From contig NZ_CP091851.1 of NCBI RefSeq assembly GCF_022059845.1, positions 3,968,001 to 4,032,000 of the forward strand: a DNA stretch of 64,000 bases, written 5' to 3'. Shown here one piece after another: positions 1 to 15,561 of the stretch. Below the pieces are notes generated by a model. The model had not been told where the DNA came from and did no database searches. It saw nothing but the letters and a program-made list of their open reading frames with translations. The position numbers were made by a program, and so were the translations under genes. Positions within the stretch are counted from its first letter, which is position 1. Each line of letters starts with the position of its first letter. Source of the DNA: Terrirubrum flagellatum (lineage in GTDB: Bacteria > Pseudomonadota > Alphaproteobacteria > Rhizobiales > Beijerinckiaceae).

Positions 1-944
1 AGCGCCTTGCGGTCAATGCCGAGATCAAAAGCCTGGCGCACGCGCAGATCGCGGAACGGGTTCGCCGGCAGCGGCGATCCATCCTTGGCCGTCACCTGTT
101 TCGTCTGCTCGCGCAGATCGAACTCAATATTGAAGACATAGACCGACTGAACCTTCGAAATCGCGAGCTTGGGATCACGCTCGAGAACCGGAACGTCGGC
201 CGCCGGCGCGCGCACGATCAGATCGACCTGGCCCGCCTTGAGCTGCGCGACGCGCGCGGCGTCGTTTGGAATCTCCTTGCGCACCACACGGGCCCAGGGC
301 GACGGCCCCTGCCAGTAGTCAGGATTGCGCTCGAGAACAAACTCCTCCTTCGGAGTCCATTTGACGAACTTGAAGGGCCCGGTGCCGATCGCGGCCTTGC
401 CGGAATTGAACACCTCGTTGGCGTTCTCGGGCGTCACGCCAGCGGCGGCCTTGTGGCTCACGATAAACAGACGAATGAAATCGTTCGGCAGCGTCGGCGC
501 AGGACCATTCGTGATGACATGAATGGTCAAGGGATCGATGATCTTGGTTTCCTTCACCTGGCGCACATAGATGGATGTCGGATTCGGGCCTTTCAGCGCC
601 GGAATGCGCTCGATCGAGAACTTCACGTCCTCGGCGGTGAAGTCGGAGCCATCATGGAATTTCACGCCCTTGCGCAGCTTGAACTCCCAGGTAGTCGGAT
701 CGATCGCCTTCCAGCTTTCGGCGAGACCCGGCTCGAGCTGAAGCTTGTCGCCGGACCAGACCAGCGTGTCATAGACATGCTTCATCGCCTCGGCGTGAGT
801 GCCCGTGGCGGTGAAATGCGGATCCATCGAGTCCTGACCGGCGCGAATGCCTATTATCAGCGTCTGCGCCGACACGGCGCTCGTCATCAGCAAGGCGGCG
901 GTCAACGCGCCCGCGCGTAAGAAGTTTCTCACATGCATCGTCAT
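1..944 (-). CDS. ABC transporter solute-binding protein, family 5, N-terminal part (cut by window edge)
   Basis: This is the periplasmic substrate receptor of a dipeptide/oligopeptide-type ABC importer. The reading frame is open from an ATG at 944 to the window edge, so about 314 residues are present and the C-terminus is missing. A Sec signal peptide ends near SAVSAQT. The family 5 signature KFHDGSDFTAEDVK is visible, and the last codons read LRVRQAFDLGIDRKAL, also typical. An AGGGGAG ribosome site lies at 951-957. The start is one base after the stop of the MarR-type gene, so the two are co-transcribed. It probably feeds the divergent permease and ATPase genes at 2328-6146, which have no receptor of their own. 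The ligand is unknown. Confidence 0.93.
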   Translation of the reverse strand, partial: MTMHVRNFLRAGALTAALLMTSAVSAQTLIIGIRAGQDSMDPHFTATGTHAEAMKHVYDTLVWSGDKLQLEPGLAESWKAIDPTTWEFKLRKGVKFHDGSDFTAEDVKFSIERIPALKGPNPTSIYVRQVKETKIIDPLTIHVITNGPAPTLPNDFIRLFIVSHKAAAGVTPENANEVFNSGKAAIGTGPFKFVKWTPKEEFVLERNPDYWQGPSPWARVVRKEIPNDAARVAQLKAGQVDLIVRAPAADVPVLERDPKLAISKVQSVYVFNIEFDLREQTKQVTAKDGSPLPANPFRDLRVRQAFDLGIDRKA

Positions 945-945
945 C

Positions 946-1497
946 TCAATTCTCCCCTGCGATCTCCGCCGGCCAATCGCCGGCCTTCAGAATAATCTTC
1001 GTCATGAGGCTTTCGAGCGTCGCCTGCTCGTCCGGCGTCAGCGCGTGCGCCATGAGCTGCTCGCGCGCCACGAGCCGCGGCACCGTGTCCTTGATGATCG
1101 CCTTGCCGCTGGCCGAAAGATAAAGGTGATAGCGGCGGCGATCTTCAGCGTTCTGCTCGCGGCGGATCAGCTTCTTGCGCAAGAGGCTGTTCACCGCGCG
1201 GCTCAACGTGTTCTTCGGCCGCGAAGACGAAGCGACGATGTCCTCCGCCGTGATGCCTTCGCGCAGGCCGAGCGCATAAAGCACGACATGTTCAGGCTGC
1301 GTCAGCCGGTGATTGCGCCAGATGAGCTGATAGATGGGATGATTGAAGTGATGGGCGATATAGTTGACGCGGAAGGACAGCCAGCAAGGATTGTCCCACA
1401 GCTTTGTCGCGACCATGCCGTTGAGTTCGGCCGGGAACGCGTCGCGTTCGCCTGATTGGGCGGCGTTGCGTCGCGAAGCCAGAACCACACGCGCCAT
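946..1497 (-). CDS. MarR-family transcriptional regulator
   Basis: A winged-helix regulator of about 183 residues. The core of the fold is visible: a recognition-helix region near SSRPKNTLSRAVNSLL, followed by the wing RREQNAEDRRRYHLYL, whose DxRR motif is diagnostic of MarR proteins. The ATG at 1497 is preferred over the GTG at 1503 because a GGAAGG ribosome site sits about 7 bases before the ATG. The gene is translationally linked to the solute-binding protein at 944 and divergent from the creatininase-family gene. Two palindromes in the intergenic region are likely its operators, so it probably represses itself and the divergent operon. The inducer is unknown; by neighbourhood it may be the transported compound or a product of it. 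Confidence 0.9.
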   Translation of the reverse strand: MARVVLASRRNAAQSGERDAFPAELNGMVATKLWDNPCWLSFRVNYIAHHFNHPIYQLIWRNHRLTQPEHVVLYALGLREGITAEDIVASSSRPKNTLSRAVNSLLRKKLIRREQNAEDRRRYHLYLSASGKAIIKDTVPRLVAREQLMAHALTPDEQATLESLMTKIILKAGDWPAEIAGEN

Positions 1498-1515: not shown

Positions 1516-1529
1516 GTTCCATTTGGAAC
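1516..1529. promoter_or_regulatory. Operator-like palindrome 1 (MarR side)
   Basis: GTTCCATTTGGAAC: arms GTTCCA and TGGAAC separated by two bases, extended by A/T on either side. It ends 18 bases before the MarR start codon. A second copy lies 49 bp away. Size and symmetry suit a dimeric MarR protein; that this regulator binds here is inference. Confidence 0.72.
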
Positions 1530-1564
1530 TTGACGCGACGAATGGCGCCCGTCAAGATCAAAAA

Positions 1565-1578
1565 GTTCCAGATGGAAC
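1565..1578. promoter_or_regulatory. Operator-like palindrome 2 (creatininase side)
   Basis: GTTCCAGATGGAAC, with the same six-base arms as the site at 1516. It ends 19 bases before the ATG of the creatininase-family gene, mirroring the spacing on the MarR side. This suggests repression of both divergent promoters by one protein. Confidence 0.72.
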
Positions 1579-1597: not shown

Positions 1598-2299
1598 ATG
1601 CGCATCGCCGACATGAACTGGATGCAGACGCAGGCCCAGGTCGCGAAAGACGACCGCTGCGTGATCCCGCTCGGCTCGACGGAGCAGCACGCACATTTGA
1701 GCCTCAGCGTTGACGCGATCCTCTCCTCGCGCGTCGCGGAAGAGGCGGCCGAACCGCTTGCCGTTCCGGTGTTTCCCGTCGTGAATTACGGGCTCGCCAT
1801 CTCCTTCGCTGATTTTCCCGGCACGATCGCGCTTCGCCTCTCCACGCTCGCGGCGATCGTCGAAGACCTGCTCGACAGCGTCCATCGCGCAGGCTTCCGC
1901 CGCATTGTGTTCGTCAACGGCCATGGCGGCAACATTCCCGTCAACGCCGCCGCGCAGGAATGGCTCCATCGCCATCGTGGCGCACAGGTGAAATGGCATG
2001 ACTGGTGGAACGCACCGAAAACCATGGCGAAGGTGAAAGAGATCGATCCCATCGCCTCGCACGCCTCATGGATGGAGAATTTTCCCTGGACGCGGCTGCC
2101 AGGCGTGCAACAGCCGCCAGAGCGCAAGCCGATGATCGATGTCTCCATGCTGCGCCAACTCGATCCCGCCGCGAAGAAGGCGCTGCTCGGCGACGGCAAC
2201 TACGGCGGCTACTATCAGCGTCCTGACGAGGACATGCTGGCGATCTGGGCCGTCGCGGTTGAAGAAACGCGCGAGATCATCCGGGACAACTGGGCGTGA
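1598..2299 (+). CDS. Creatininase-family amidohydrolase
   Basis: A protein of about 233 residues of the creatininase / mycofactocin-protease-E family, metal-dependent hydrolases that act on cyclic or linear amides. The metal-site motifs GSTEQHAHL near the N-terminus and NGHGGN in the middle are present. The ATG at 1598 is chosen because the earlier in-frame TTG at 1523 lies inside an operator. It is the first gene of a rightward operon with an importer 28 bases downstream, so the substrate is probably imported by that transporter. True creatininase activity is not shown; the family also includes formamide, lactam and peptide hydrolases. No signal peptide is seen, so it should act in the cytoplasm. 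Confidence 0.86.
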   Translation: MRIADMNWMQTQAQVAKDDRCVIPLGSTEQHAHLSLSVDAILSSRVAEEAAEPLAVPVFPVVNYGLAISFADFPGTIALRLSTLAAIVEDLLDSVHRAGFRRIVFVNGHGGNIPVNAAAQEWLHRHRGAQVKWHDWWNAPKTMAKVKEIDPIASHASWMENFPWTRLPGVQQPPERKPMIDVSMLRQLDPAAKKALLGDGNYGGYYQRPDEDMLAIWAVAVEETREIIRDNWA

Positions 2300-2327: not shown

Positions 2328-3299
2328 ATGACGGGTTTCGTTATCCAGCGCCTTCTGCAGGCCTGCCTCGTGATGCTTGTGATGTCGGCGCTGGTTTTTA
2401 TCGGCGTTTACGCCATCGGCAATCCGATCGATGTGCTGATCTCGCCGGACGCCGACCAGCGCACGCGCGCCGAGGTGATTGCGCGCTTCGGTCTCGACCG
2501 ACCGCTGTGGGAGCAATATTTCGGCTTTCTCACCCGGCTGCTCCATGGCGATATGGGCAAATCCTTCGTCTTCGGCATGCCGGTCCTCGATCTCATTCTC
2601 TCGCGACTGCCGGCAACGCTTGAATTGACTCTCGCCGCGGTGATCGGCGCGACGCTGATCGGCGTGCCGCTCGGCATGTATGCAGGCTACAGGCCGGAAA
2701 GCCCACTGTCGAAAGCGATCATGGCCGTCTCGATCCTCGGCTTTTCCGTGCCGACATTCTGGGTCGGCATTCTCCTGATCTTCGGCTTCGCCGTGCAGCT
2801 TGGCGTGCTGCCCGCCGGCGGCCGCGGCGAGACCGTCTCGGTCTTTGGCGTCGAATGGAGCTTTCTCACACTCGACGGGCTGAAACATCTCTTCTTGCCC
2901 GCACTCAATCTCTCGCTGTTCAAATTCGCCATGATGGTGCGCCTGTCGCGCGCGGGAACGCGCGAGATCATGCTGACCGACACGGTGAAATTCGCGCGCG
3001 CCGCCGGGCTCTCGGAAGCCGCGATTCTTGGCCGCCATGTGCTGAAGCTGATCTCGATCCCGATCGTCACCGTGTTCGGGCTCGAACTCGGCTCGACAAT
3101 GGCTTTCGCGGTCGTCACCGAGACGATCTTCACCTGGCCCGGCGTCGGCAAGCTGATCATCGACTCGATCTCGACGCTCGATCGGCCTGTGATGGTCGCC
3201 TATCTCGTGCTGGTCGCTTTCCTCTTCATCGTCATCAACCTCTCGGTCGATCTCGTTTATGCGGCGCTCGATCCGCGCCTGCGCAAGGCGAGGGCGTGA
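2328..3299 (+). CDS. ABC transporter permease, DppB type
   Basis: Inner-membrane permease of 323 residues. It starts with the usual membrane helix (residues about 5-27), then a periplasmic loop and about five more helices. The permease-ATPase coupling motif lies around EAAILGRHVLK, and the TETIFTWPGVGKL motif near the C-terminus is characteristic of DppB/OppB. The ATG at 2328 begins MTGFVIQRLL, a canonical family start. Its stop overlaps the start of the next permease (TGATG), indicating translational coupling. Together with the DppC, DppD and DppF type proteins it makes a full importer core. Confidence 0.93.
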   Translation: MTGFVIQRLLQACLVMLVMSALVFIGVYAIGNPIDVLISPDADQRTRAEVIARFGLDRPLWEQYFGFLTRLLHGDMGKSFVFGMPVLDLILSRLPATLELTLAAVIGATLIGVPLGMYAGYRPESPLSKAIMAVSILGFSVPTFWVGILLIFGFAVQLGVLPAGGRGETVSVFGVEWSFLTLDGLKHLFLPALNLSLFKFAMMVRLSRAGTREIMLTDTVKFARAAGLSEAAILGRHVLKLISIPIVTVFGLELGSTMAFAVVTETIFTWPGVGKLIIDSISTLDRPVMVAYLVLVAFLFIVINLSVDLVYAALDPRLRKARA

Positions 3300-4174
3300 T
3301 GGAGCTTGTCGGCCTGCGCGCGTTCTGGCGCGACTTCCGCGAAAGTCGCATCGCGACCGCGGCGCTGATCGTCGTCGCACTGATCCTGCTGCTCGCGATT
3401 CTCGCGCCTTATTTCACGCCGCAAAATCCTTATGACATCGCCAAACTCGATCTCTCGGACGCGCGGCGGCCGCCGGGCTTCGTCGGCTCCGGAGGCTATG
3501 CGCACTGGCTCGGCACCGACGCGCAGGGCCGCGATCTCTGGTCGGCCATTCTCTATGGCCTGCGCATCTCGCTGCAGATGGGGCTCATCGCCGGCGCAGT
3601 GGCGCTAAGCTGCGGCGCGACGCTTGGCGTGCTCGCGGCCTATCTCGGCGGTCGGGCGGAAGCCTTCATCATGCGGATCATTGATCTGCAACTTTCCTTC
3701 CCCGCGATCCTGCTCGCGCTCGTGCTTTCCGCCCTGCTCGGGCAAGGCAAGACGCAGCTCATCATCGCACTCGTCACCGCGCAGTACGCCTATTTCGCGC
3801 GCACCGCTCATGGCGCCGCGACAGCCGAACGCAGCAAGGATTATGTCGAAGCCGCGCTGTCGACGCCGATGCCGACCTACGCCGTGGTGTTCCGCCACAT
3901 CCTGCCGAACTGCCTGCCGCCGCTGATCGTCGTCGCGACCGTGCAGATCGCCAATGCGATCTCGCTCGAGGCCACCCTGTCCTTTCTCGGCCTAGGCCTG
4001 CCGGCGACGGAGCCGTCGCTCGGCATGCTGATCTCGAACGGCTTTCAATACATGCTGTCCGGCCGCTACTGGATATCGATCTATCCCGGCGTCGCGTTGA
4101 TTATCCTCATCGTCGCGATCAATCTCGTCGGCGATCAGATCCGCGACCAGCTCAATCCGAGGCTGAGACGATGA
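3299..4174 (+). CDS. ABC transporter permease, DppC type
   Basis: The second permease, 291 residues. It has an N-terminal cytoplasmic segment and helix (about 20-40), the LGTDAQGRDLWSAILYG motif typical of DppC/OppC, and a coupling region near the helix ending FRHILPNCLPP. The ATSFLGLG-like segment reads EATLSFLGLG. The ATG overlaps the previous stop by one base, and the gene end overlaps the ATPase start (ATGA). The first 148 codons of this reading frame upstream of 3299 are an out-of-frame extension over the first permease and are not used. Confidence 0.93.
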   Translation: MELVGLRAFWRDFRESRIATAALIVVALILLLAILAPYFTPQNPYDIAKLDLSDARRPPGFVGSGGYAHWLGTDAQGRDLWSAILYGLRISLQMGLIAGAVALSCGATLGVLAAYLGGRAEAFIMRIIDLQLSFPAILLALVLSALLGQGKTQLIIALVTAQYAYFARTAHGAATAERSKDYVEAALSTPMPTYAVVFRHILPNCLPPLIVVATVQIANAISLEATLSFLGLGLPATEPSLGMLISNGFQYMLSGRYWISIYPGVALIILIVAINLVGDQIRDQLNPRLRR

Positions 4175-5145
4175 GCGCGCCGGTTCTGGAGGTCAGCGAT
4201 CTCGCAACGCATTTCTTTACGCGCGCTGGCGTCGCGAAAGCGGTCGATGGCGTCTCGTTTGAACTCGCGCGTGGGGAAACGCTCGGGCTCGTGGGCGAAT
4301 CCGGATCAGGCAAGAGCGTCACCGGCTTTTCCCTGCTCGGGCTCATCGATCCGCCCGGACGCGTCGTGCATGGCTCGGTGAGACTGCGCGGCGAAGAACT
4401 CGTGGGCATGCCGATCGAAGCGTTGCGGCGCCTGCGCGGCAAGCGCATCGCGATGATCTTTCAGGACCCCATGATGACGCTGAACCCGGTGCTCAGCATC
4501 GCCCGGCAGATGACGCTCGCCGTCAATGCGCATGACAAGATTTCGCACGTGGAAGCGCGCCAACGCGCCATCGCGGCGCTGACGCGCGTCGGCATTCCCG
4601 ACGCGGCGCGGCGCATCGACGACTATCCCCACCAATTCTCCGGCGGCATGCGCCAGCGCGTCGCGATCGCCATCGCGCTTCTGCACGACCCCGACGTCAT
4701 CGTGGCGGACGAGCCGACGACGGCGCTCGACGTCTCGATTCAGGCGCAGATTCTGGCGGAGATGCGCGGCCTCGTGCGCGAAACCGGGGCCGCGCTGATC
4801 TGGATCAGCCATGATCTCGCGACCGTCTCATCGCTCGCCGACCGCATCGCTGTGATGTACGCCGGCCGCCTGGTCGAGGAAGGCCCGACCGCGCGCGTGC
4901 TGCGCGACCCGCGGCATCCCTACACGCGCGGTTTGATCGATGCGCTGCCGTCGCGCACCGAACCGGGCCGCGACCTGCCACAGATTCCGGGGTCGACGCC
5001 ATCGCTGTTGCGTCTTCCGCAAGGCTGTCCTTTCGCGCCGCGCTGCTCACACGCCGACGATCTCTGCAAAACCGATCCGCCGCGCATGGTTGAAGATTTG
5101 CGCGCCTATCGTTGCCATCATCCTTTCATGGAGCGCGCGGCATGA
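4171..5145 (+). CDS. ABC transporter ATP-binding protein, DppD/OppD type
   Basis: A cytoplasmic ATPase of 324 residues. The Walker A motif GESGSGKS is at about residues 42-49, the signature FSGGMRQR at about 155 and the Walker [13 protein letters not shown] follows. The C-terminal oligopeptide-transporter domain carries the cysteine cluster CPFAPRC...C. It overlaps the permease before it and the ATPase after it by four bases each. It pairs with the DppF-type protein as a heterodimer energising the importer. Confidence 0.94.
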
Positions 5146-6146
5146 GCGCGTTCCTGAAGGTCGAGAATGTCTCCAAGACTTTCGCGCCGCGACTGTCGCT
5201 AGGCGAGCGCGTCGCAGCCGCGCTCGGCGGCGCGGTCGAAACGCGCGCCGTTCATGCGGTCGATCGCGTGTCCTTCGAGATCGCGCGCGGCGAGACGCTG
5301 GGGCTCGTCGGCGAATCGGGTTGCGGCAAATCGACATTGGGCCGCGTCGTCGCCGGCATCCACGAGCCGACATCGGGACGCATCACGCTTGACGGCGCGC
5401 CAGTGATGAGCGGCGGGCGGAAGCTGACGACGCGCGTGCAGACCGTCTTTCAGGATCCGTTCTCGTCGCTCAATCCGCGCATCCGCATCGGCGACATCAT
5501 CGCGGAGGGACCGATCGCGCATGGGCTGACGACAAAGGCGAACGCCGTCGCCTATGCGCGCGACTGGCTGGGCACGGTCGGCCTTGATCCTGATTTCGTC
5601 TCACGCTTTCCGCATCAATTTTCCGGCGGCCAGAGGCAGCGCGTCGCGATCGCGCGCGCGCTTGCGATGAAGCCCGATCTTCTCGTTTGCGACGAACCCG
5701 TCGCATCGCTCGACGTGTCGATCCAGGCGCAGATCATCAATCTCTTCCTGCGTCTGCGTCGTGAACTCAATCTCACCATGCTGTTCATCAGCCACGACAT
5801 CGGCGTGGTGCGTCATCTCTGCGACCGGATCGCGATCATGTATCTCGGCCGCATCGTCGAGATCGGCACGGCGGCTGAGGTGCATGAAGCGCCGCAGCAT
5901 CCCTATTCGCAGGCGCTGCTCGATTCCGTGCCGAAACTGGTGATCCAGGACGGCGCGATCGTTGAGTTCAAGCCGATCGCCGGCGAACTGCCCTCGCCGC
6001 TCTCGCCGCCGAAGGGTTGCCATTTCCATGCGCGATGCCCCCATACGATGTCGATATGCCGAACGACGGCGCCGGATTTGCGCGCCGCGCCGTCCGGCGC
6101 GCTGGCCGCCTGCCATCTGATCGAGAAAGCTGCGGCCGCGGCCTGA
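5142..6146 (+). CDS. ABC transporter ATP-binding protein, DppF/OppF type
   Basis: The second ATPase of the importer, 334 residues from the ATG at 5142, which overlaps the DppD-type stop. Walker A is GESGCGKST, the signature FSGGQRQR and Walker [13 protein letters not shown], with the H-loop in [10 protein letters not shown]. The C-terminus has the cysteine-containing tail [14 protein letters not shown]. An earlier ATG at 5112 would only add residues that overlap the previous gene. The operon probably continues into the dehydrogenase 57 bases downstream. Confidence 0.94.
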
Positions 6147-6203: not shown

Positions 6204-6971
6204 ATGTCGATGGAACTGTTCAATCTCGCGGGGAAGATCGCGCTCGTCACCGGATCGAGCCAGGGGATCGGCTATTCGATCGCCAAGGGCCTCGCGCAAG
6301 CCGGCGCGCATGTGGTGCTCAATGGCCGCGACCCCGAAAAGCTCGGCAAGGCGCGCGACGAACTGCTCGCGCTCGGCCTCGTCTGCCATATCTCCGCATT
6401 CGATGTGACTGATGCGAGCGAAGTCTCCGCGGCCGTGCAGGTGATTGAAGAGAAGGTCGGGCCGATCGATATTCTCGTGAACAACGCCGGCATGCAGAAG
6501 CGCGGCCCGTTCGTCGATTACGATCATGCTGACTGGGACAGAATGATTGCAACCAATCTGTCATCCGTTTTCTATGCGGCGCAGGCTGTCGCGAAGCGAA
6601 TGACCGAGCGCGGCCGCGGCAAGATCATCAATATCGGCTCCGTGATGAGCGAGCTCGGCCGCCCAACGATCATTCCCTACACCGCAACGAAGGGCGCAGT
6701 GAAGATGATGACGCGCGGCATGGCCGCCGAGCTCGGCAAGCACAACATTCAGGTCAACGCGATCGGCCCCGGCTATTTCACGACTGAGCTCAACAAGGCG
6801 CTGATCGAGAATGAAGAGTTCAACAGCTGGGTGAAGAACCGCACGCCGGCCGGCCGCTGGGGCGACACCGACGAGTTGATCGGCGCCGCCGTGTTCCTCG
6901 CATCAAAGGCGTCGGACTATGTCAACGGCCATCTGCTGATGGTCGATGGCGGACTGACCAGCGTCGTGTGA
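6204..6971 (+). CDS. Short-chain dehydrogenase/reductase, gluconate 5-dehydrogenase-like
   Basis: A classical SDR of 255 residues using NAD(P). The cofactor motif TGSSQGIG is at residues 16-23, NNAG in the middle, and the catalytic Tyr159 and Lys163 are in YTATK. The C-terminus VDGGLTSVV is typical. Sequence style (FNLAGKIALVTG, GRDPEKL) resembles gluconate 5-dehydrogenase and KduD-type enzymes, which oxidise or reduce sugar acids, but the substrate cannot be fixed by reading. It follows the transporter by 57 bases on the same strand with a GGGAG ribosome site, so it is likely the last gene of the MarR-controlled rightward operon. Confidence 0.88.
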   Translation: MSMELFNLAGKIALVTGSSQGIGYSIAKGLAQAGAHVVLNGRDPEKLGKARDELLALGLVCHISAFDVTDASEVSAAVQVIEEKVGPIDILVNNAGMQKRGPFVDYDHADWDRMIATNLSSVFYAAQAVAKRMTERGRGKIINIGSVMSELGRPTIIPYTATKGAVKMMTRGMAAELGKHNIQVNAIGPGYFTTELNKALIENEEFNSWVKNRTPAGRWGDTDELIGAAVFLASKASDYVNGHLLMVDGGLTSVV

Positions 6972-7219: not shown

Positions 7220-8107
7220 CTACTTCGCGCGTGGATCGAGCGCGTCGCGCAGGCCGTCGCCAAGAAGATTGAACGACAGCACCGTGATGAAGATGGCGAC
7301 GCCGGGAAAGATCGCCATCCATGGCGCATTCGAGAGAAAGCGCTGCGCCACGTTGAGCATGCTGCCCCAGGATGGCGCCGGCGGTTGCTGACCAAGGCCG
7401 AGGAATGACAGCGCCGCCTCTGCGATGATCGCGGTCGCGATGGTGATCGTCGCCTGCACGATGAGTTGCGGCATGATGTTCGGCAGGATATGGCGGACCG
7501 CGATGCGCAAGCTCGAATTGCCGACTGCACGCGCCGCCTCGACATAATCCTCGACCTTCACGGACAGCACCTGCCCGCGCGTCAACCGCACGAAGATCGG
7601 CGTCGCGGTGACGCCGATGGCAATCATCGCATTGGTGAGACTCGGCCCCAGAAACGCAGCGAGCGCTATCGCAAGAATGAGGAATGGGCAGGCCAGCATT
7701 GCATCGGCGATGCGGCTGATGATGGCGTCGACCCAGCCGCCGAGATAGCCAGCGGCAAGACCCAACGGTGCGCCAAGCCCCAGCGCGATGCAGACGGAAA
7801 TCACGCCCGCCATCAAAGAAGCGCGCGCGCCGAAAATCACGCGCGAGAAGAGATCGCGGCCGACTTCATCGGTTCCAAACCAGTAGATCGCCGACGGCGC
7901 CTTGCGCACCGCGCTCCAGCTCTGCTTGGCGGGATCGAAGGGCGCGATCCAGGGCGCAAAAACCGCGAGCGCGAGGATCACGAGAAGAATGACGAGCGCG
8001 ACCATGGCGCCCTTGCGCCGGCGCAGCCTGATCCAGGCGCGCCGCATCGGACTGTCCGGCGTCTGCACGGGCGGAGCTGAAATGACGGCGTCAGCGGCGA
8101 GAGTCAT
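7220..8107 (-). CDS. ABC transporter permease, DppC type (second importer)
   Basis: A permease of 295 residues, last gene of the leftward operon. The N-terminal cytoplasmic part precedes the first helix (about 35-55). The motif FGTDEVGRDLFSRVIFG is the DppC/OppC hallmark, and the coupling loop lies near VRHILPNIMPQ. The EAALSFLGLG segment and the end LGDGLRDALDPR are canonical. It overlaps the DppB-type permease by four bases. It differs clearly from the permease at 3299, so the two importers are not a recent duplication. Confidence 0.93.
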   Translation of the reverse strand: MTLAADAVISAPPVQTPDSPMRRAWIRLRRRKGAMVALVILLVILALAVFAPWIAPFDPAKQSWSAVRKAPSAIYWFGTDEVGRDLFSRVIFGARASLMAGVISVCIALGLGAPLGLAAGYLGGWVDAIISRIADAMLACPFLILAIALAAFLGPSLTNAMIAIGVTATPIFVRLTRGQVLSVKVEDYVEAARAVGNSSLRIAVRHILPNIMPQLIVQATITIATAIIAEAALSFLGLGQQPPAPSWGSMLNVAQRFLSNAPWMAIFPGVAIFITVLSFNLLGDGLRDALDPRAK

Positions 8108-9045
8108 TGCCGGAGCCTTGGATTGACAAGGATGTAGCCGATATCGGCCAACAGATTGAGCAGGATGTAGGTCGTGGCCGTGACCAGCACGACGCCCTGC
8201 ACGACGGCGTAATCCCGGTTGAAGACTGCGTCGACAATCAGCTTGCCGAAGCCCGGAATCGTGAAGATCTGTTCGGTGAGCACCGCGCCAGACAAGAGCG
8301 TGCCGAATTCAAGCGCGCCCAGCGTGATCACGGGCGTCAACGCGTTGCGCATGGCGTGCTTGATCACGACGGTCTGCTCGAACAAGCCTTTCGCGCGCGC
8401 CGTGCGGACATAATCGCTGTCGAGCGCCTGCAGCATCGCCGCGCGCGTATGTCGCATCAGCACGCCGGCGAGCGCGTTCCCTAAAACAAAGGCCGGCATG
8501 ATCGTCGTCTTGAGCGACATCCCCAAATCCTCGAACGGGCTGACATAGCCTGACGCCGGCAGCCAACCGAGTTGCACCGAGAAGAAAAGGATCAGCATGA
8601 TCCCGAGCCAGAAATTCGGCGTCGAGATGCCCCAGAGCGACACCACATTGACGAGATAGTCGACCCAGGAATCGCGCTTCACCGCGGAGATCACGCCGGC
8701 GGTGACGCCGATCACCAGCGCGATAATGATCGCCATGGTCGCGAGCTGCAGCGTCACCGGCAGCTTCTGCAGCACGAGCTCGGACACCGGCATCTTGAGC
8801 CGTATGGATTCGCCGAGATCGCCGACCAACACGCCCTTGATCCAGAAGAGATACTGGATGGGGAGCGGCTGATCGAGTCGATATTGCCGGCGAATCTGCG
8901 CGATCACTTCGGGGTCGCGATCCTCGCCGGCCATGACGAGCGCGGGATCGCCCGGCAGCAACTGCTGCAGCAGAAAAATGAGCACCGACACGCAGAACAC
9001 CGTCGGCAACAGCTGCAACAACCTCCGGGCGAGAAGCGACGCCAT
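8104..9045 (-). CDS. ABC transporter permease, DppB type (second importer)
   Basis: A permease of 313 residues beginning MASLLARRLLQLLPT, with a helix at about 10-30. It has the GDLGESIRLK and PVSELVLQKLPVTLQL regions usual in the family and ends with the motif TEQIFTIPGFGKL. It starts 20 bases after the solute-binding protein stop and overlaps the next permease by four bases, which supports one transcript. Confidence 0.93.
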   Translation of the reverse strand: MASLLARRLLQLLPTVFCVSVLIFLLQQLLPGDPALVMAGEDRDPEVIAQIRRQYRLDQPLPIQYLFWIKGVLVGDLGESIRLKMPVSELVLQKLPVTLQLATMAIIIALVIGVTAGVISAVKRDSWVDYLVNVVSLWGISTPNFWLGIMLILFFSVQLGWLPASGYVSPFEDLGMSLKTTIMPAFVLGNALAGVLMRHTRAAMLQALDSDYVRTARAKGLFEQTVVIKHAMRNALTPVITLGALEFGTLLSGAVLTEQIFTIPGFGKLIVDAVFNRDYAVVQGVVLVTATTYILLNLLADIGYILVNPRLRQ

Positions 9046-9065
9046 ACTCGTCTACTCTTTCGACG

Positions 9066-10577
9066 TCAGCTCTTGAACTTCAGCCCGACAACGCGAACGA
9101 GCCCGTCCGAGATCGGCTTGAAGCCTTCAAGACGCGCGCTGTAGGTGATGATGTTCTGGACGTGATAGAGGTAGATGATGCCGCCTTCGGTCGTCAGCTT
9201 CTTCACGATCTTGCCATAGACGGCCTTGCGATCCGGCACGCTTGACTTGAGGCGCGCCTCGTCAAGCGCCGCATCGACCTCCGGATCGGAGTAAGCGCTG
9301 TAATTGTTCGGTTGGCCGGTCTTGGCGAAGGTGTAGATATTGCCGTCGGGATCGGTGCGACCCGACCATCCGATAAGATAGCCCTGATAGCGGCCCGCTT
9401 CCGCCTCGTTCAACGAGGTCGCGAATTCAGTCACCCTGATCTTCATGTCGAATCCGGCTTCCGCCGTCATCGCCTGAAGAATCTCGGCGACCTGCCGCGT
9501 CTCAGGGTTGTTCGGCGTCATGAGATCAATCGCGATCGGCGTCGACACGCCGGACTCTGCGATCAGCTTCTTGGCGCGCGCGAGATCGCGCGCCGGAACC
9601 GGAACGCTTTCCTGATAATAGGGGTGCTTCGGACTGACCCACTGATTGCCCGGCACGAATTCGCCGTTGAACACGACATCGTTGAGCGCCTTGCGATCGA
9701 TCGCCAGCGACAACGCTTCGCGAATGCGCTTGTCGGCGAAGACTTTCGAAGCGTCACCCTTGCCGACGTTGAGGTTGAGGCTGCGATAGCCGAGCTCGAG
9801 CGCGGTCGCGACCTTCAGCTTGGGATCAGCGCGCATATCCTTGAGATCGGTCGCCAGCGGGCGCTCGATCAGGTCAAGCTGGCCGGCGCGCAGATTGGCG
9901 AGGCGCACGGTCGAATCGGTAACCGGCAAATAGGTGATCTTGTCGATAAAGACATTCGCCTTGTTCCAGTAGTCGGCGAACTTCTCGACCACGATGCGAT
10001 CCTGCTGCACGCGCTCGACGAACTTGTAGGGGCCGGCGCATACCGGCTTCAAGCCAAACTTGTCGCCCGCCTCCTTCGCCGCCTTCGGCGACACCATCAT
10101 GCCGGCGCGATCGGTGAGCTGCGCGATCAGCGGCGAGAACGGCGCCTTGAGAACAAGCTTGATGGTGAGAGGATCGACGACCTCCACTTTCTCGATCGAG
10201 GACACTTCCGGCTTGCGGAACGAGCCCTGCATATTCATGTGCCGCTCAAGCGAGAACTTCGCGGCTTCGGCGTCGAAGGCCTCTCCGTCATGGAATTTCA
10301 CGCCGGGGCGGAGCTTGATCAGCACCTGCTTGCCATCGTCCGACGTCTCGCTCGAGAGCGCGAGCTGCGGCACGACGTTGAGCTTCTCATCGATGTCAAA
10401 CAGCTTGTCGCAGATCGATGCGAAGACGATGCGGCCGACGTAAGTGCGCGCCAGCGATGGATCAAGCACATCAGGATCTTCCGCAAGGCCGATGCGCAAA
10501 TGCGTCTGCGCCGATGCGGACAAGGCGCCTGCCGTCAGCGCGAAAACTGCGAATGCGGCGCGGGCGAGATGTTTCAT
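9066..10577 (-). CDS. ABC transporter solute-binding protein, family 5 (second importer)
   Basis: A periplasmic receptor of 503 residues. The signal peptide MKHLARAAFAVFALTAGALSASAQ is followed by LRIGLAEDPDVLDPSL, the common start of mature family 5 proteins, then KFHDGEAFDAEAAKFS and the RIREALSLAIDRKALN region. The ATG at 10577 is chosen over that at 10592 because a GGGAG ribosome site precedes it. It lies between the ATPases and the permeases. The ligand cannot be read from the sequence; the family binds peptides, glutathione, opines and other molecules. Confidence 0.93.
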   Translation of the reverse strand: MKHLARAAFAVFALTAGALSASAQTHLRIGLAEDPDVLDPSLARTYVGRIVFASICDKLFDIDEKLNVVPQLALSSETSDDGKQVLIKLRPGVKFHDGEAFDAEAAKFSLERHMNMQGSFRKPEVSSIEKVEVVDPLTIKLVLKAPFSPLIAQLTDRAGMMVSPKAAKEAGDKFGLKPVCAGPYKFVERVQQDRIVVEKFADYWNKANVFIDKITYLPVTDSTVRLANLRAGQLDLIERPLATDLKDMRADPKLKVATALELGYRSLNLNVGKGDASKVFADKRIREALSLAIDRKALNDVVFNGEFVPGNQWVSPKHPYYQESVPVPARDLARAKKLIAESGVSTPIAIDLMTPNNPETRQVAEILQAMTAEAGFDMKIRVTEFATSLNEAEAGRYQGYLIGWSGRTDPDGNIYTFAKTGQPNNYSAYSDPEVDAALDEARLKSSVPDRKAVYGKIVKKLTTEGGIIYLYHVQNIITYSARLEGFKPISDGLVRVVGLKFKS

Positions 10578-10623
10578 GACCGTCTCCCTCATCCAGACTT
10601 GTTCGTTCTCAAGCCAGCAATTC

Positions 10624-11697
10624 TCATGCCTCGACAGAGGCCGAACGCGCGCCGAAGCGCGCGATCAGATCGGCGACGCGCGGATCGATCTGCTCTTCAA
10701 GCGGTGTCAGCCGCCCAGCCGGCGGCAACTCCTCGGCGCGATGGCAAGCCGCGAGATGCGCATCGGCGATCGAACGCAGCAGCGGACGTTCGACGCGGCA
10801 GCGATCAATCACATGCGGACAGCGCGCGTGGAGATGACAACCGGGCGGCGGATTGATCGGGCTCGGCACGTCGCCCTGCAATATCTGGCGGTTGCGGCTT
10901 GCAGATGGCGACGGAACGGGAATCGCGGACAACAGCGCGCGCGTATAGGGATGGCGCGGATTGTCGAACAGTTCATCGCCTGACGTCGTCTCGACGATAC
11001 GGCCGAGATACATCACGGCGACGCGATCGGCGATATGCTTCACGACAGCGAGGTCATGCGAAATGAAGACGAGCGCGAGGCCAAGCTGACGCTGGAGATC
11101 GCGCAGGAGATTGAGAATCTGCGCGCGAATCGAGACGTCGAGCGCCGAGACCGCTTCATCGCAGACGATCAGCTTCGGCTCGCTCGCCAGCGCGCGCGCG
11201 ATCACTACGCGCTGGCGCTGGCCGCCGGAGAATTCATGGGGATAGCGCGCCGCCTGCTCGGGCTTCAAGCCAACGCGCTGCAACAACTCCTCGACGCGCG
11301 CACGGCGCCCGCTGGCGGGAACAAGACCATGCAGCATCAAAGGCTCCGCGACCGCGTCATAGACGGTCATGCGCGGATTGAGCGATGCGAACGGGTCCTG
11401 AAAAATGAGCTGCATATGCCGACGCAGCGCGCGCATCGCGCCGCCGGATAACTGGAAAATATCCTGTCCCTCGAACGTCACCTTGCCGTCGGTTGGCTCG
11501 AGAAGGCGCAGCAGCAGGCGGCCAACCGTCGATTTGCCGCAGCCGGATTCACCGACGAGCGCCAGCGTCTCACCCGCCGCGACTTCGAGATCGACGCCAT
11601 CAACCGCCTTCACCATCGCCAGCGGACGCCCGATAGCCGAACGCTTCGCGACGAAGTGCTTGACCAGATTCTCGGCGCGCAGCAGCGGCTCGCTCAT
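10624..11697 (-). CDS. ABC transporter ATP-binding protein, OppF type (second importer)
   Basis: An ATPase of 357 residues. Walker A is GESGCGKST, the signature FSGGQRQR and Walker B LIVCDEAVSALD, with the H-loop at VFISHDLAVV. The C-terminal oligopeptide-transporter tail has CHLHARCPHVIDRC. The ATG overlaps the stop of the OppD-type gene (ATGA). The C-terminal extension of about 50 residues after the cysteine cluster is slightly longer than usual. Confidence 0.94.
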   Translation of the reverse strand: MSEPLLRAENLVKHFVAKRSAIGRPLAMVKAVDGVDLEVAAGETLALVGESGCGKSTVGRLLLRLLEPTDGKVTFEGQDIFQLSGGAMRALRRHMQLIFQDPFASLNPRMTVYDAVAEPLMLHGLVPASGRRARVEELLQRVGLKPEQAARYPHEFSGGQRQRVVIARALASEPKLIVCDEAVSALDVSIRAQILNLLRDLQRQLGLALVFISHDLAVVKHIADRVAVMYLGRIVETTSGDELFDNPRHPYTRALLSAIPVPSPSASRNRQILQGDVPSPINPPPGCHLHARCPHVIDRCRVERPLLRSIADAHLAACHRAEELPPAGRLTPLEEQIDPRVADLIARFGARSASVEA

Positions 11698-12680
11698 GCG
11701 ACGAGCCTTTCCAGCGGCGCCTTCCAGCAGCGCGACATGCGGCCGGGCGAAGGCTCGACCATCGGCGGCGGATTGGCGCGGCAGTTCGCATCGGCGAAGG
11801 CGCAGCGCGCGGCGAAGCGGCAGCCTTGCGGCGGCCGGCTCATATCGGGCACAGCGCCTTCGATCGCCGCCAGCCGCTCCTTGCGCACATCAAGGCGCGG
11901 CAGCGAGCCCATGAGGCCGATCGTGTAGGGATGCTGGGGAAAGCGGAAAAGCTCGGCGACCGGCGCGCGCTCCACGATCTCGCCGGCATACATCACGATC
12001 ACATCATCGCACACTTCGGCGACGACGCCGAGATCATGGGTGATGAGAATGATCGCCGCGCCGGATTCCTCACGCAACGCGCGCATCAGATCGAGAATCT
12101 GCGCCTGAATGGTGACGTCGAGCGCAGTCGTCGGCTCGTCCGCGATCAGCAATTCGGGATCGCAGGCGAGCGCCATGGCGATCATCGCGCGCTGACGCAT
12201 GCCTCCGGACAGGCGATGCGGATATTCGTGGAAACGCTGTTCGGGATTGGGAATGCGCACGCGGCGCAGCATCTCGATGGCGCGCTCTTCCGCCTGTTTC
12301 GCATTCGCCTTGCGATGGCGCCTGTAACCTTCGGTGATCTGGTCGCCGATGGTGAAGGACGGGTTGAGCGACGTCATCGGCTCCTGAAAGATCATGGCGA
12401 TGCGATTGCCGCGCAGATCGCGCAACTCGTCCTCGGATATCTTCCGGAGATCCTTTCCCTCGAACAGGATCTCGCCTTCGATTTCGGCGGACGCTTTCGG
12501 CAGAAGCCCCATCACCGAGAGCGAGGTCACGCTCTTGCCGCAGCCGGATTCGCCGACAACGCCGAGCGTGCGGCCGCGACGCGCCTGAAAACTGATTCCA
12601 TCGACGGCGCGCGTGCGCCTGCCATCATGCGCGCGAAAGCCAATCTTCAAATCGCGCACATCGAGCAGGGGCGCATCCAT
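11694..12680 (-). CDS. ABC transporter ATP-binding protein, OppD type (second importer)
   Basis: An ATPase of 328 residues. Walker A GESGCGKS, signature LSGGMRQR and Walker [13 protein letters not shown] are present; the C-terminal cluster is CRFAARCAFADANC. Its ATG shares one base with the stop of the DUF1028 gene (TGATG), so both are translated together. The coupling ties the DUF1028 hydrolase to the importer. Confidence 0.94.
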   Translation of the reverse strand: MDAPLLDVRDLKIGFRAHDGRRTRAVDGISFQARRGRTLGVVGESGCGKSVTSLSVMGLLPKASAEIEGEILFEGKDLRKISEDELRDLRGNRIAMIFQEPMTSLNPSFTIGDQITEGYRRHRKANAKQAEERAIEMLRRVRIPNPEQRFHEYPHRLSGGMRQRAMIAMALACDPELLIADEPTTALDVTIQAQILDLMRALREESGAAIILITHDLGVVAEVCDDVIVMYAGEIVERAPVAELFRFPQHPYTIGLMGSLPRLDVRKERLAAIEGAVPDMSRPPQGCRFAARCAFADANCRANPPPMVEPSPGRMSRCWKAPLERLVA

Positions 12681-13393
12681 CAGCCGCGGCCTTTTTCCAT
12701 GGAGATGGCGATCTGACGCTCGATCTCGGCGCGATCGATGATTCCCGCCGGATTGTCCTTGCTCGGCATGAATTTGCGATAATGCATGAAGCGCCGCCAG
12801 CTTTCCTCTTCAAGGCGCGTGAGTTCGGCGAGTGGATCGACATGATCGTCGACGCGAAGATCGACGCGCGGATATTCCTGTTCGTCATGAATACGGATCG
12901 CCGCGGACTGCTTGCCGCGCTTGTCGCCGCCTGCCGCTTCGCCTGCTTTCAGCGCCGCGAGAAATCGGCGCGCGAGATCAAGATGTTTGTTGGCCTCGAA
13001 CGCTTTCGCGGTCTCATCGATCACGGCTGGGCCGGCAAGCATATTGCCGGCGACGGAGAAATCCTCGCGGATGAGATGGCCGCACCAGTCGACGCAATTC
13101 GCGCCGGTGTAAGCCGCCGAACGTCCCTTCCTATCCATCACATGCATCTGGCGTTCGCCGCGGCCCTCATCATTCGACGTGACGACGCGGATGACATCCT
13201 CGGCCGACGCGCCGGCGCGCAGCAATTCAAGCCCGCGATAGCCGTAATATGGATTGACGAAAGCCTGCGTCGCAATCGCGCCGACGCCGGTCGCGACGAA
13301 GGGAACGCGCGCGCCGACGGCGAAGGCGCAGGTCGAGACGGCGACCCCGATTTGCCCTGTGACGCGATCCCGCGCGACAATCGACCAGGTCAT
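12680..13393 (-). CDS. DUF1028 Ntn-hydrolase-like protein
   Basis: A protein of 237 residues beginning MTWSIVARDRVTGQIGVAVSTCAFAVGARVP, characteristic of the DUF1028 family. The family is predicted to have the Ntn-hydrolase fold and is often found with peptide or amide catabolism, although activities are poorly known. The conserved sections FVNPYYGYRGLELL and GAN-C-VDWCGHL are present. It is the first gene of the leftward operon with the second importer. An operator-like palindrome matching the MarR sites ends 20 bases before its start codon. No signal peptide is visible, so it is probably cytoplasmic and acts on the imported compound. Confidence 0.87.
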   Translation of the reverse strand: MTWSIVARDRVTGQIGVAVSTCAFAVGARVPFVATGVGAIATQAFVNPYYGYRGLELLRAGASAEDVIRVVTSNDEGRGERQMHVMDRKGRSAAYTGANCVDWCGHLIREDFSVAGNMLAGPAVIDETAKAFEANKHLDLARRFLAALKAGEAAGGDKRGKQSAAIRIHDEQEYPRVDLRVDDHVDPLAELTRLEEESWRRFMHYRKFMPSKDNPAGIIDRAEIERQIAISMEKGRG

Positions 13394-13413
13394 TTGAACG
13401 CCCCGCCAAACTC

Positions 13414-13427
13414 GTTCCGATTGGAAC
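13414..13427. promoter_or_regulatory. Operator-like palindrome 3, matching the MarR sites
   Basis: GTTCCGATTGGAAC has the arms GTTCC and GGAAC and differs from the sites at 1516 and 1565 at only one of the twelve arm positions. It lies 20 bases before the DUF1028 start codon, the same geometry as the other two. It suggests that the second transporter operon belongs to the same regulon. Confidence 0.6.
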
Positions 13428-13536
13428 CAATGTGGCCGGAGACGGACCGTCTGTCACCCCGCATTTTGCGGTCAGGCATGCCAGCCGATCACATTTCCTC
13501 TAGTTATGATCCGCCCATGCGGCGGACGACGCGCCG

Positions 13537-15336
13537 TCAGCGTCCGACGGCGTAGCCCTGCATGCCACGCGGGTTCGCAGCGGCCTTGAGCAGAGCGCCA
13601 TCGCGCGCCGCAGCGACGAGGCGTCCTTCCGACCAGTCGGGACCCACCTCAACCTTGTGGCCGCGGCGCCTGAGCTCCTCGATCGTCGCCTTGGGAAAGC
13701 GGCCTTCGAGCACGATCACGCCGGGTCTGGCCATGCGCGGCCAGAAGGAGGTGGGGAAATGTTCGGTGTGCCAGGCCGGCGCATCGATCGCCTCCTGCAG
13801 ATTCATTCGAGCATGGACGTGGCGCAGGAACATCTGCGGGATCCATTGATCCTGCTGGTCGCCACCGGGCGATCCCCAGGCGAGATAGGCTTCGCCGTCA
13901 CGCAGCGCCATGGTCGGTGAAAGCGTCGTGCGCGGACGGCGGCCTTTGCCGAGCGCGGCAGGATGAGATTCGTCGAGCACGAACATCTGCGCGCGCGTTC
14001 CGAGGCAGAAGCCGAGTTCGGGAATCACGGGCGAGGATTGCAGCCAGCCGCCTGACGGCGTCGCCGCGATCATGTTGCCGTGACGATCGATGATGTCGAA
14101 ATGCACGGTGTCGCCGCGCGTTTCGCCAAGGCGCCCAACGGTCGGTTCGCCGACGCCGGTCGCCGACACCGCCGAGCGCGCGCCTTCCGCGACGCGCAGG
14201 CCGAAAGATTTGCCGCGGCCGGGAATAATGCCAGGGCGCTGATCCATGGAGGCCGTCTCGCCAATCAGCTTGCGGCGCTCGTCATTGTAAGCGTCCGACA
14301 GAAGCGTATCGAGCGGCACGTCGACGAAATCAGGGTCGCCGAGGAATGTGTCGCGATCGGCAAAGGCGAGCTTCGCCGCCTCTGTGACGAGATGGACGAA
14401 ATCCGGCCCGCGAACATCGACGCCGTCGAGATTGAATCCCTTGAGCAGCGCGAGCTGCTGCAGCGTCGCGATGCCCTGGCACCAGCCGCCCGGCTTCATC
14501 ACGGTGTAGCGGCCATAGTCGTAGGACGCCGGCGCTTCGACCGTCGCCTGCCACTTCGCCATGTCGTCGCCATTCAGCACGCCGCGATGACGGCGGCCGG
14601 AGGAATCCATCACCTCCTGCTCGCGACAGAAGCGGGCGATGGCTTCCGCAACGAAGCCTTGCGACCAGACTTTTCGCGCCTTCTCGATCTGCGCCTCGCG
14701 CCCCTCGACAGATTCAGCTTCCTTCAGAATCCGCTCATAGGTCGCAGCCAGCGTCGGGTTCGAGAAGACAGAGCCCGGCGCCGGCGGCTTGCCGCCGGGC
14801 AAATAGAGCGCGGCGGATGTCGGCCAGTGATCGCGGAACAGGCCGGCGACCGTTTCGATCGTCGCGGTGATGCGCTCGACGACGGGATAGCCATGGCGGG
14901 CATAGGAGATCGCGGGCTCGAGAACGTCGCGCACCCGCAGCGTGCCATAGTCGCGCAGCAGCAGCATCCAGGCGTCGAAGGTGCCGGGCACGCAAGTCGC
15001 GAGAAGGCCGGTTCCCGGAATGAGATCGAGACCGAGTTCGCGGCAATGGCCGATGGTCAGCCCATTAGGCGCGATCCCCTGCCCGCAGATCACCTCGACC
15101 TTGCCCTTGCGCACGTCACGCACAAGCACTGGCACGTCGCCGCCGGGGCCGTTCAGGTGCGGCTCGACCACCTGAAGCGTGAAGGCGGTGGCGACGCCGG
15201 CGTCGAAGGCGTTGCCGCCGCGCTCCAGCACGCCCATCCCGACCGCCGAGGCGATCCAGTGAGTCGAGGCGACCACGCCGAAAGTCCCCTGGATTTCGGG
15301 GCGCGTGGTGAAAGGGGCGGGATTGACGAAAGACAT
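13537..15336 (-). CDS. ggt: Gamma-glutamyltransferase family protein
   Basis: An Ntn-hydrolase of 599 residues, made as a proenzyme and cleaved before a catalytic threonine. That threonine is Thr410 in GDTVHFDIID, the counterpart of the TTHYS motif. The N-terminal part has GVVASTHWIASAVGMGVLERGGNAFDA, and the small subunit has SPTMALRDG and WGSPGGDQQDQW. The ATG at 15336 is chosen since homologous reading begins there. No signal peptide is seen, unlike periplasmic glutathione hydrolases, so a cytoplasmic role on gamma-glutamyl or acyl-amide substrates is possible. It lies upstream of the DUF1028 operon on the same strand, 143 bases away, but has no matching operator of its own. Confidence 0.88.
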   Translation of the reverse strand: MSFVNPAPFTTRPEIQGTFGVVASTHWIASAVGMGVLERGGNAFDAGVATAFTLQVVEPHLNGPGGDVPVLVRDVRKGKVEVICGQGIAPNGLTIGHCRELGLDLIPGTGLLATCVPGTFDAWMLLLRDYGTLRVRDVLEPAISYARHGYPVVERITATIETVAGLFRDHWPTSAALYLPGGKPPAPGSVFSNPTLAATYERILKEAESVEGREAQIEKARKVWSQGFVAEAIARFCREQEVMDSSGRRHRGVLNGDDMAKWQATVEAPASYDYGRYTVMKPGGWCQGIATLQQLALLKGFNLDGVDVRGPDFVHLVTEAAKLAFADRDTFLGDPDFVDVPLDTLLSDAYNDERRKLIGETASMDQRPGIIPGRGKSFGLRVAEGARSAVSATGVGEPTVGRLGETRGDTVHFDIIDRHGNMIAATPSGGWLQSSPVIPELGFCLGTRAQMFVLDESHPAALGKGRRPRTTLSPTMALRDGEAYLAWGSPGGDQQDQWIPQMFLRHVHARMNLQEAIDAPAWHTEHFPTSFWPRMARPGVIVLEGRFPKATIEELRRRGHKVEVGPDWSEGRLVAAARDGALLKAAANPRGMQGYAVGR

Positions 15337-15561
15337 GGGCGCGGGACCGCTCGAAAGGAGGCCGGACCATGCGCGCGTCGTGCGCAGGGGTAAACAGGCA
15401 AGACCCACGCGCCACGCATGCCGCCTTCCCGCGCCGACGCATGGGCGCTCAGCCGCCCGGCTGCTATGCGCCGCTCAACCGCTGCGGCGCATCGAACCAT
15501 TCATGCTCTTTCATTCCGTTGATTCATGTGGCGCGCCGCCTGCGCGCGCGAGCGACATTCA

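Follow-up and report, generated by a model that had tools for sequence, protein, structure and literature searches.

A candidate third operator of a MarR-family regulator ahead of a DUF1028 gene in Terrirubrum flagellatum

Three palindromes of the form GTTCCN4GGAAC lie in the window, by which we mean the whole 64-kb stretch of Terrirubrum flagellatum DNA analysed. Two of them occupy the gap between the divergent genes for a MarR-family regulator and a creatininase-family enzyme, and a MarR regulator with these two proximal operators is well supported by comparison with related loci. The third stands between the genes for a gamma-glutamyltransferase (GGT) and a DUF1028 protein, and we regard it as probably, though by no means certainly, a recent, lineage-specific and weaker operator of the same MarR protein at an internal promoter. 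The features are collected in Table 1.

Table 1. Genes, palindromes and putative control elements of the two importer loci
Feature	Position	Strand	Remarks
Importer 1 substrate-binding protein SBP1 (SBP_bac_5)	1..944	-	Runs past window edge
Isoaspartyl peptidase	L012:8323-9333	MarR-SBP1 strand	Just outside window, downstream of SBP1; kept in nearly all relatives' loci
MarR-family regulator (Pfam MarR_2)	946..1497	-	Domain match; only close homologue in genome
O1, MarR operator, GTTCCATTTGGAAC (coding strand GTTCCAAATGGAAC)	1516..1529	-	18 bases from MarR ATG at 1497; overlaps putative -10/+1 of marR promoter
Putative -35 TTGACG, creatininase promoter	1530..1535	+	Read from sequence; -10-like CAAGAT at 1553-1558
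Putative -35 TTGACG, marR promoter	1550..1555	-	Read from sequence
O2, MarR operator, GTTCCAGATGGAAC	1565..1578	+	19 bases from creatininase ATG at 1598; kept in genus mate G019
Creatininase-family enzyme	1598..2299	+	Profile match
Importer 1 permeases and ATPases (OppB, OppC, OppD, OppF type)	2328..6146	+	
Short-chain dehydrogenase	6204..6971	+	After OppF
Importer 2: OppD, OppF, substrate-binding protein, OppB, OppC	7220..12680	-	
DUF1028 protein	12680..13393	-	
Imperfect RNA hairpin with the palindrome as its tip	13398..13444	-	From folding; rival reading
Candidate third operator, GTTCCGATTGGAAC (coding strand GTTCCAATCGGAAC)	13414..13427	-	20 bases from DUF1028 ATG at 13393; G019 without site
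Putative -35 GTGACA, internal promoter before DUF1028	13452..13457	-	Read from sequence; -10-like CACATT at 13429-13434
Gamma-glutamyltransferase (GGT)	13537..15408	-	Upstream of DUF1028; 143-base gap holds third site

The first-pass annotation had reported the sequence and coordinates of the third site, the single arm base that sets it apart from the palindromes at 1516 and 1565, and the similar distances of the three palindromes to their start codons, all of which proved correct on recheck. This likeness in spacing favors an operator, and the O1 distance would become 12 instead of 18 if MarR started at the alternative GTG at 1503. Beyond the arm mismatch, the third site is missing the outer A and T of strong sites. 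The palindrome occurs exactly three times in the window, against 0.02 occurrences expected from shuffled sequence. Pattern searches of the whole genome (6.38 Mb) returned 11 copies, with the GTTCCRNNYGGAAC form confined to the three window sites. Up to one mismatch from GTTCCANNTGGAAC, the genome holds 13 sites and the reversed-pattern control 15; 8 of the 10 sites other than those discussed here fall inside gene-like open reading frames.

A weight matrix trained solely on MarR promoters from other genera gave the three sites scores of 29.3, 21.4, and 16.2, and the next best position in the window scored 8.7, so that the site before DUF1028 stands well above its local background. At the third-site score of 16.16 the probability is 8.7e-7 per position, so that chance would yield 0.010 sites in 12 kb of sequence and 0.00012 in the gap between GGT and DUF1028. 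Genome-wide, about 5.5 sites are expected at this score and at least five were found; the excess over chance is thus local and not genome-wide. The third site is unlikely to have arisen by chance where it stands, and lone sites of such a score are not rare across the genome. In 1.13 Mb of related loci, the training loci included, 45 of the 46 sites scoring at least 16.16 lie in the gap adjoining marR. The remaining one, TTTCCATATGGAAC in Devosia (L058:11406-11419), is found 13 bases before the start of an isoaspartyl peptidase gene. The Devosia site is preceded by a terminator-like hairpin and is perhaps one more extra operator.

The pairing of the palindrome with this particular MarR gene is strong, since motif and gene are coinherited across Bosea and other relatives; the pairing is a comparative argument, made from their co-occurrence across related loci and not from proximity alone. 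The MarR_2 winged-helix domain scores 43 bits against a curated cutoff of 27, and the genome contains a single close homologue of the gene at an E value of 1e-20 or below. A conserved locus, in which SBP1 and MarR face creatininase and OppBCDF, is present in Bosea and, more distantly, in Mesorhizobium, Ensifer, Shinella, and Devosia. Of 46 related loci, 38 have the exact palindrome beside the MarR gene and most of the others have degenerate forms, so the site in the regulator's own promoter gap has been kept with its orthologues. The second operator, O2, is confined to this genus and present in both of its species. The isoaspartyl peptidase that follows SBP1 on the MarR strand was missed by the first-pass annotation.

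Conservation of the third site is another matter. Absence of the palindrome from orthologous loci had been named in the first-pass annotation as grounds for rejecting its proposal, and the palindrome is indeed absent before DUF1028: it is lacking in the only genus mate (G019), where the aligned stretch reads GTTCC-N7-GGAAT and both MarR-side operators are present, and in each of the 27 further loci of the family that allowed a judgment. A matrix scan of the relatives' GGT-DUF1028 loci detected no operator ahead of either gene. Extra GTTCCRNNYGGAAC sites in relatives lie mostly within genes or have no link to these systems. A site reading GTTCCGTACGGAAC was noted in the relative G109 (L170:1958-1971), some 40 bases ahead of a gene for a substrate-binding protein.

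The site had also been described as preceding the DUF1028-importer operon. It does precede the DUF1028 gene, but the same-strand GGT gene lies upstream, and in relatives GGT heads a tight GGT-DUF1028-importer operon with gaps mostly of about 0 to 16 bases. The site is therefore inside the array and not at its head, and transcripts reading through from GGT could bypass it, which argues against an operator. The gap is wide in this genus, at 143 bases and about 116 bases in the two species, and the site stands at a possible internal promoter. The element GGGTGACAG is kept in G019, equally far from the DUF1028 ATG, and could serve as a -35 element in both species. At the divergent locus, TTGAC begins 26 bases before GTTCC in both the window and Bosea, a spacing that would place the operator over -10/+1. 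A consensus promoter scan of the MarR-creatininase and GGT-DUF1028 gaps passed no promoter, so those named here are readings by eye. A second palindrome, AGACGGACCGTCT (window positions 13440-13452), lies between the putative -35 and -10 elements before DUF1028, and the genus mate is without it.

Gene neighborhood and co-occurrence tie the two importer systems together independently of the third site. Another genus supplies three genomes in which the MarR-creatininase-OppBCDF cluster and the GGT-DUF1028-importer cluster adjoin end to end on one strand. DUF1028 is encoded in 29 of the 32 genomes that have the MarR gene, compared with 69 of 199 overall, a genome-level figure that ignores kinship; counted by genus, the two co-occur in 11 of 12. 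In G019 (L013, L135), importer 2 keeps its binding protein and permeases with no ATPase genes beside them, which fits dependence on the ATPases of another importer. The second-importer operon likewise has no ATPase genes in G014 (L146) and in the Bosea loci (L150-L153). The T. flagellatum genome gives 94 matches to the Opp-type ATPase family, which amounts to a very large number of importers of the peptide type, and nearness to an importer is consequently weak evidence when taken alone. The proposal of one regulator for both importers is thus partly sustained: the MarR gene goes with the palindrome, the third site stands out clearly by its motif and is suitably placed, and the importer systems are linked, but conservation before DUF1028 is lacking.

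The main rival to an operator is an RNA structure. The palindrome would then form the tip of a stem-loop in the intercistronic GGT-DUF1028 mRNA, one that hides the ribosome site or governs how stable the mRNA is, and would resemble the MarR motif by coincidence. We consider this unlikely overall, although 14 to 18 imperfect pairs run through the palindrome, the mRNA strand folds more stably than its complement, and no such extension is seen consistently at the two firm operators. Shuffled flanks folded as well in 1 of 1,000 trials with 12-base flanks, in 38 with 17-base flanks, and in 183 with 30-base flanks; however, the flank width was picked after the fact, the sister species' own fold falls short of significance (z of -1.3 and -1.15), and the arms fit the MarR matrix at the per-position probability given above. 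The sister species keeps both arms, GTTCC and GGAAT, around a 7-base loop, a change tolerable for a hairpin but not for a site bound by a dimer, and this is the strongest argument against an operator. That the palindrome is a functionless chance match seems more improbable still: the genome-wide expectation, two other sites of such score with no evident link (L158, L162), and the absence of conservation would all suit it, but the very low local expectations and the agreement in start-codon spacing with the firm operators do not. Very improbable, finally, is binding by a different MarR-type regulator. It is common for MarR paralogues to have similar palindromes, but a single homologue exists in this genome at the E value used, and the motif tracks the gene at 946 in relatives. 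An Rfam search at the third site returned nothing credible.

On the reading we favor, the MarR protein encoded at 946-1497 would act as a repressor of its own divergent locus from two operators overlapping the transcription starts, with MarR, SBP1, and the isoaspartyl peptidase on one side and creatininase, OppBCDF, and the dehydrogenase on the other. It would also bind the third palindrome, just downstream of a putative internal promoter (GTGACA-N17-CACATT) in the GGT-DUF1028 gap, and thereby bring DUF1028 and importer 2 under the same switch. Release of the repressor would come from a peptide-derived ligand. Control of this kind is ordinary, and one switch may govern both the uptake and the breakdown of unusual peptides. 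More tentatively, and with rather less confidence than we place in the operator itself, one MarR may coordinate an isopeptide-salvage regulon made up of two importers, the isoaspartyl peptidase, DUF1028, and the creatininase-family enzyme, with GGT alongside, its operators having spread promoter by promoter within the genus. Were this so, DUF1028, a family without known function, would gain a testable role in isopeptide hydrolysis. DUF1028 and the uncharacterized creatininase-family enzyme would be tied to enzymes that open nonstandard peptide bonds, with one regulator and one DNA motif named, and the locus would offer a small example of regulon growth through one extra operator in one lineage. 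A literature search on DUF1028, PF06267, and the palindrome found no relevant paper.

The arrangement resembles MarR-family autorepressors with a divergent operon, of the MarR, HpaR, and MprA type, in its winged-helix MarR domain, its palindrome in the divergent promoter gap, and its likely autoregulation. It differs in that no NCBIfam equivalog scored above its cutoff for the MarR protein and in the candidate third operator 12 kb away. In Staphylococcus aureus, the glutathione import system GisABCD-Ggt (PMC10355420) likewise encodes an ABC importer with a gamma-glutamyltransferase; DUF1028 is an addition here, and the organism is distant. The Escherichia coli GsiABCD system with iaaA, named in the same paper, is matched by an isoaspartyl peptidase adjoining an importer with GsiB as the best match of its binding protein, although the MarR regulator, the creatininase-family enzyme, and the second importer set our locus apart, and the two binding proteins score 205 and 174 bits, far under the GsiB equivalog cutoff of 594. 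As in the Gis and Gsi systems, Opp-type importers are encoded here with Ggt or iaaA partners, and by analogy with them (PMC10355420) the likely role of the T. flagellatum genes is to take up isoaspartyl or gamma-glutamyl peptides and hydrolyze them.
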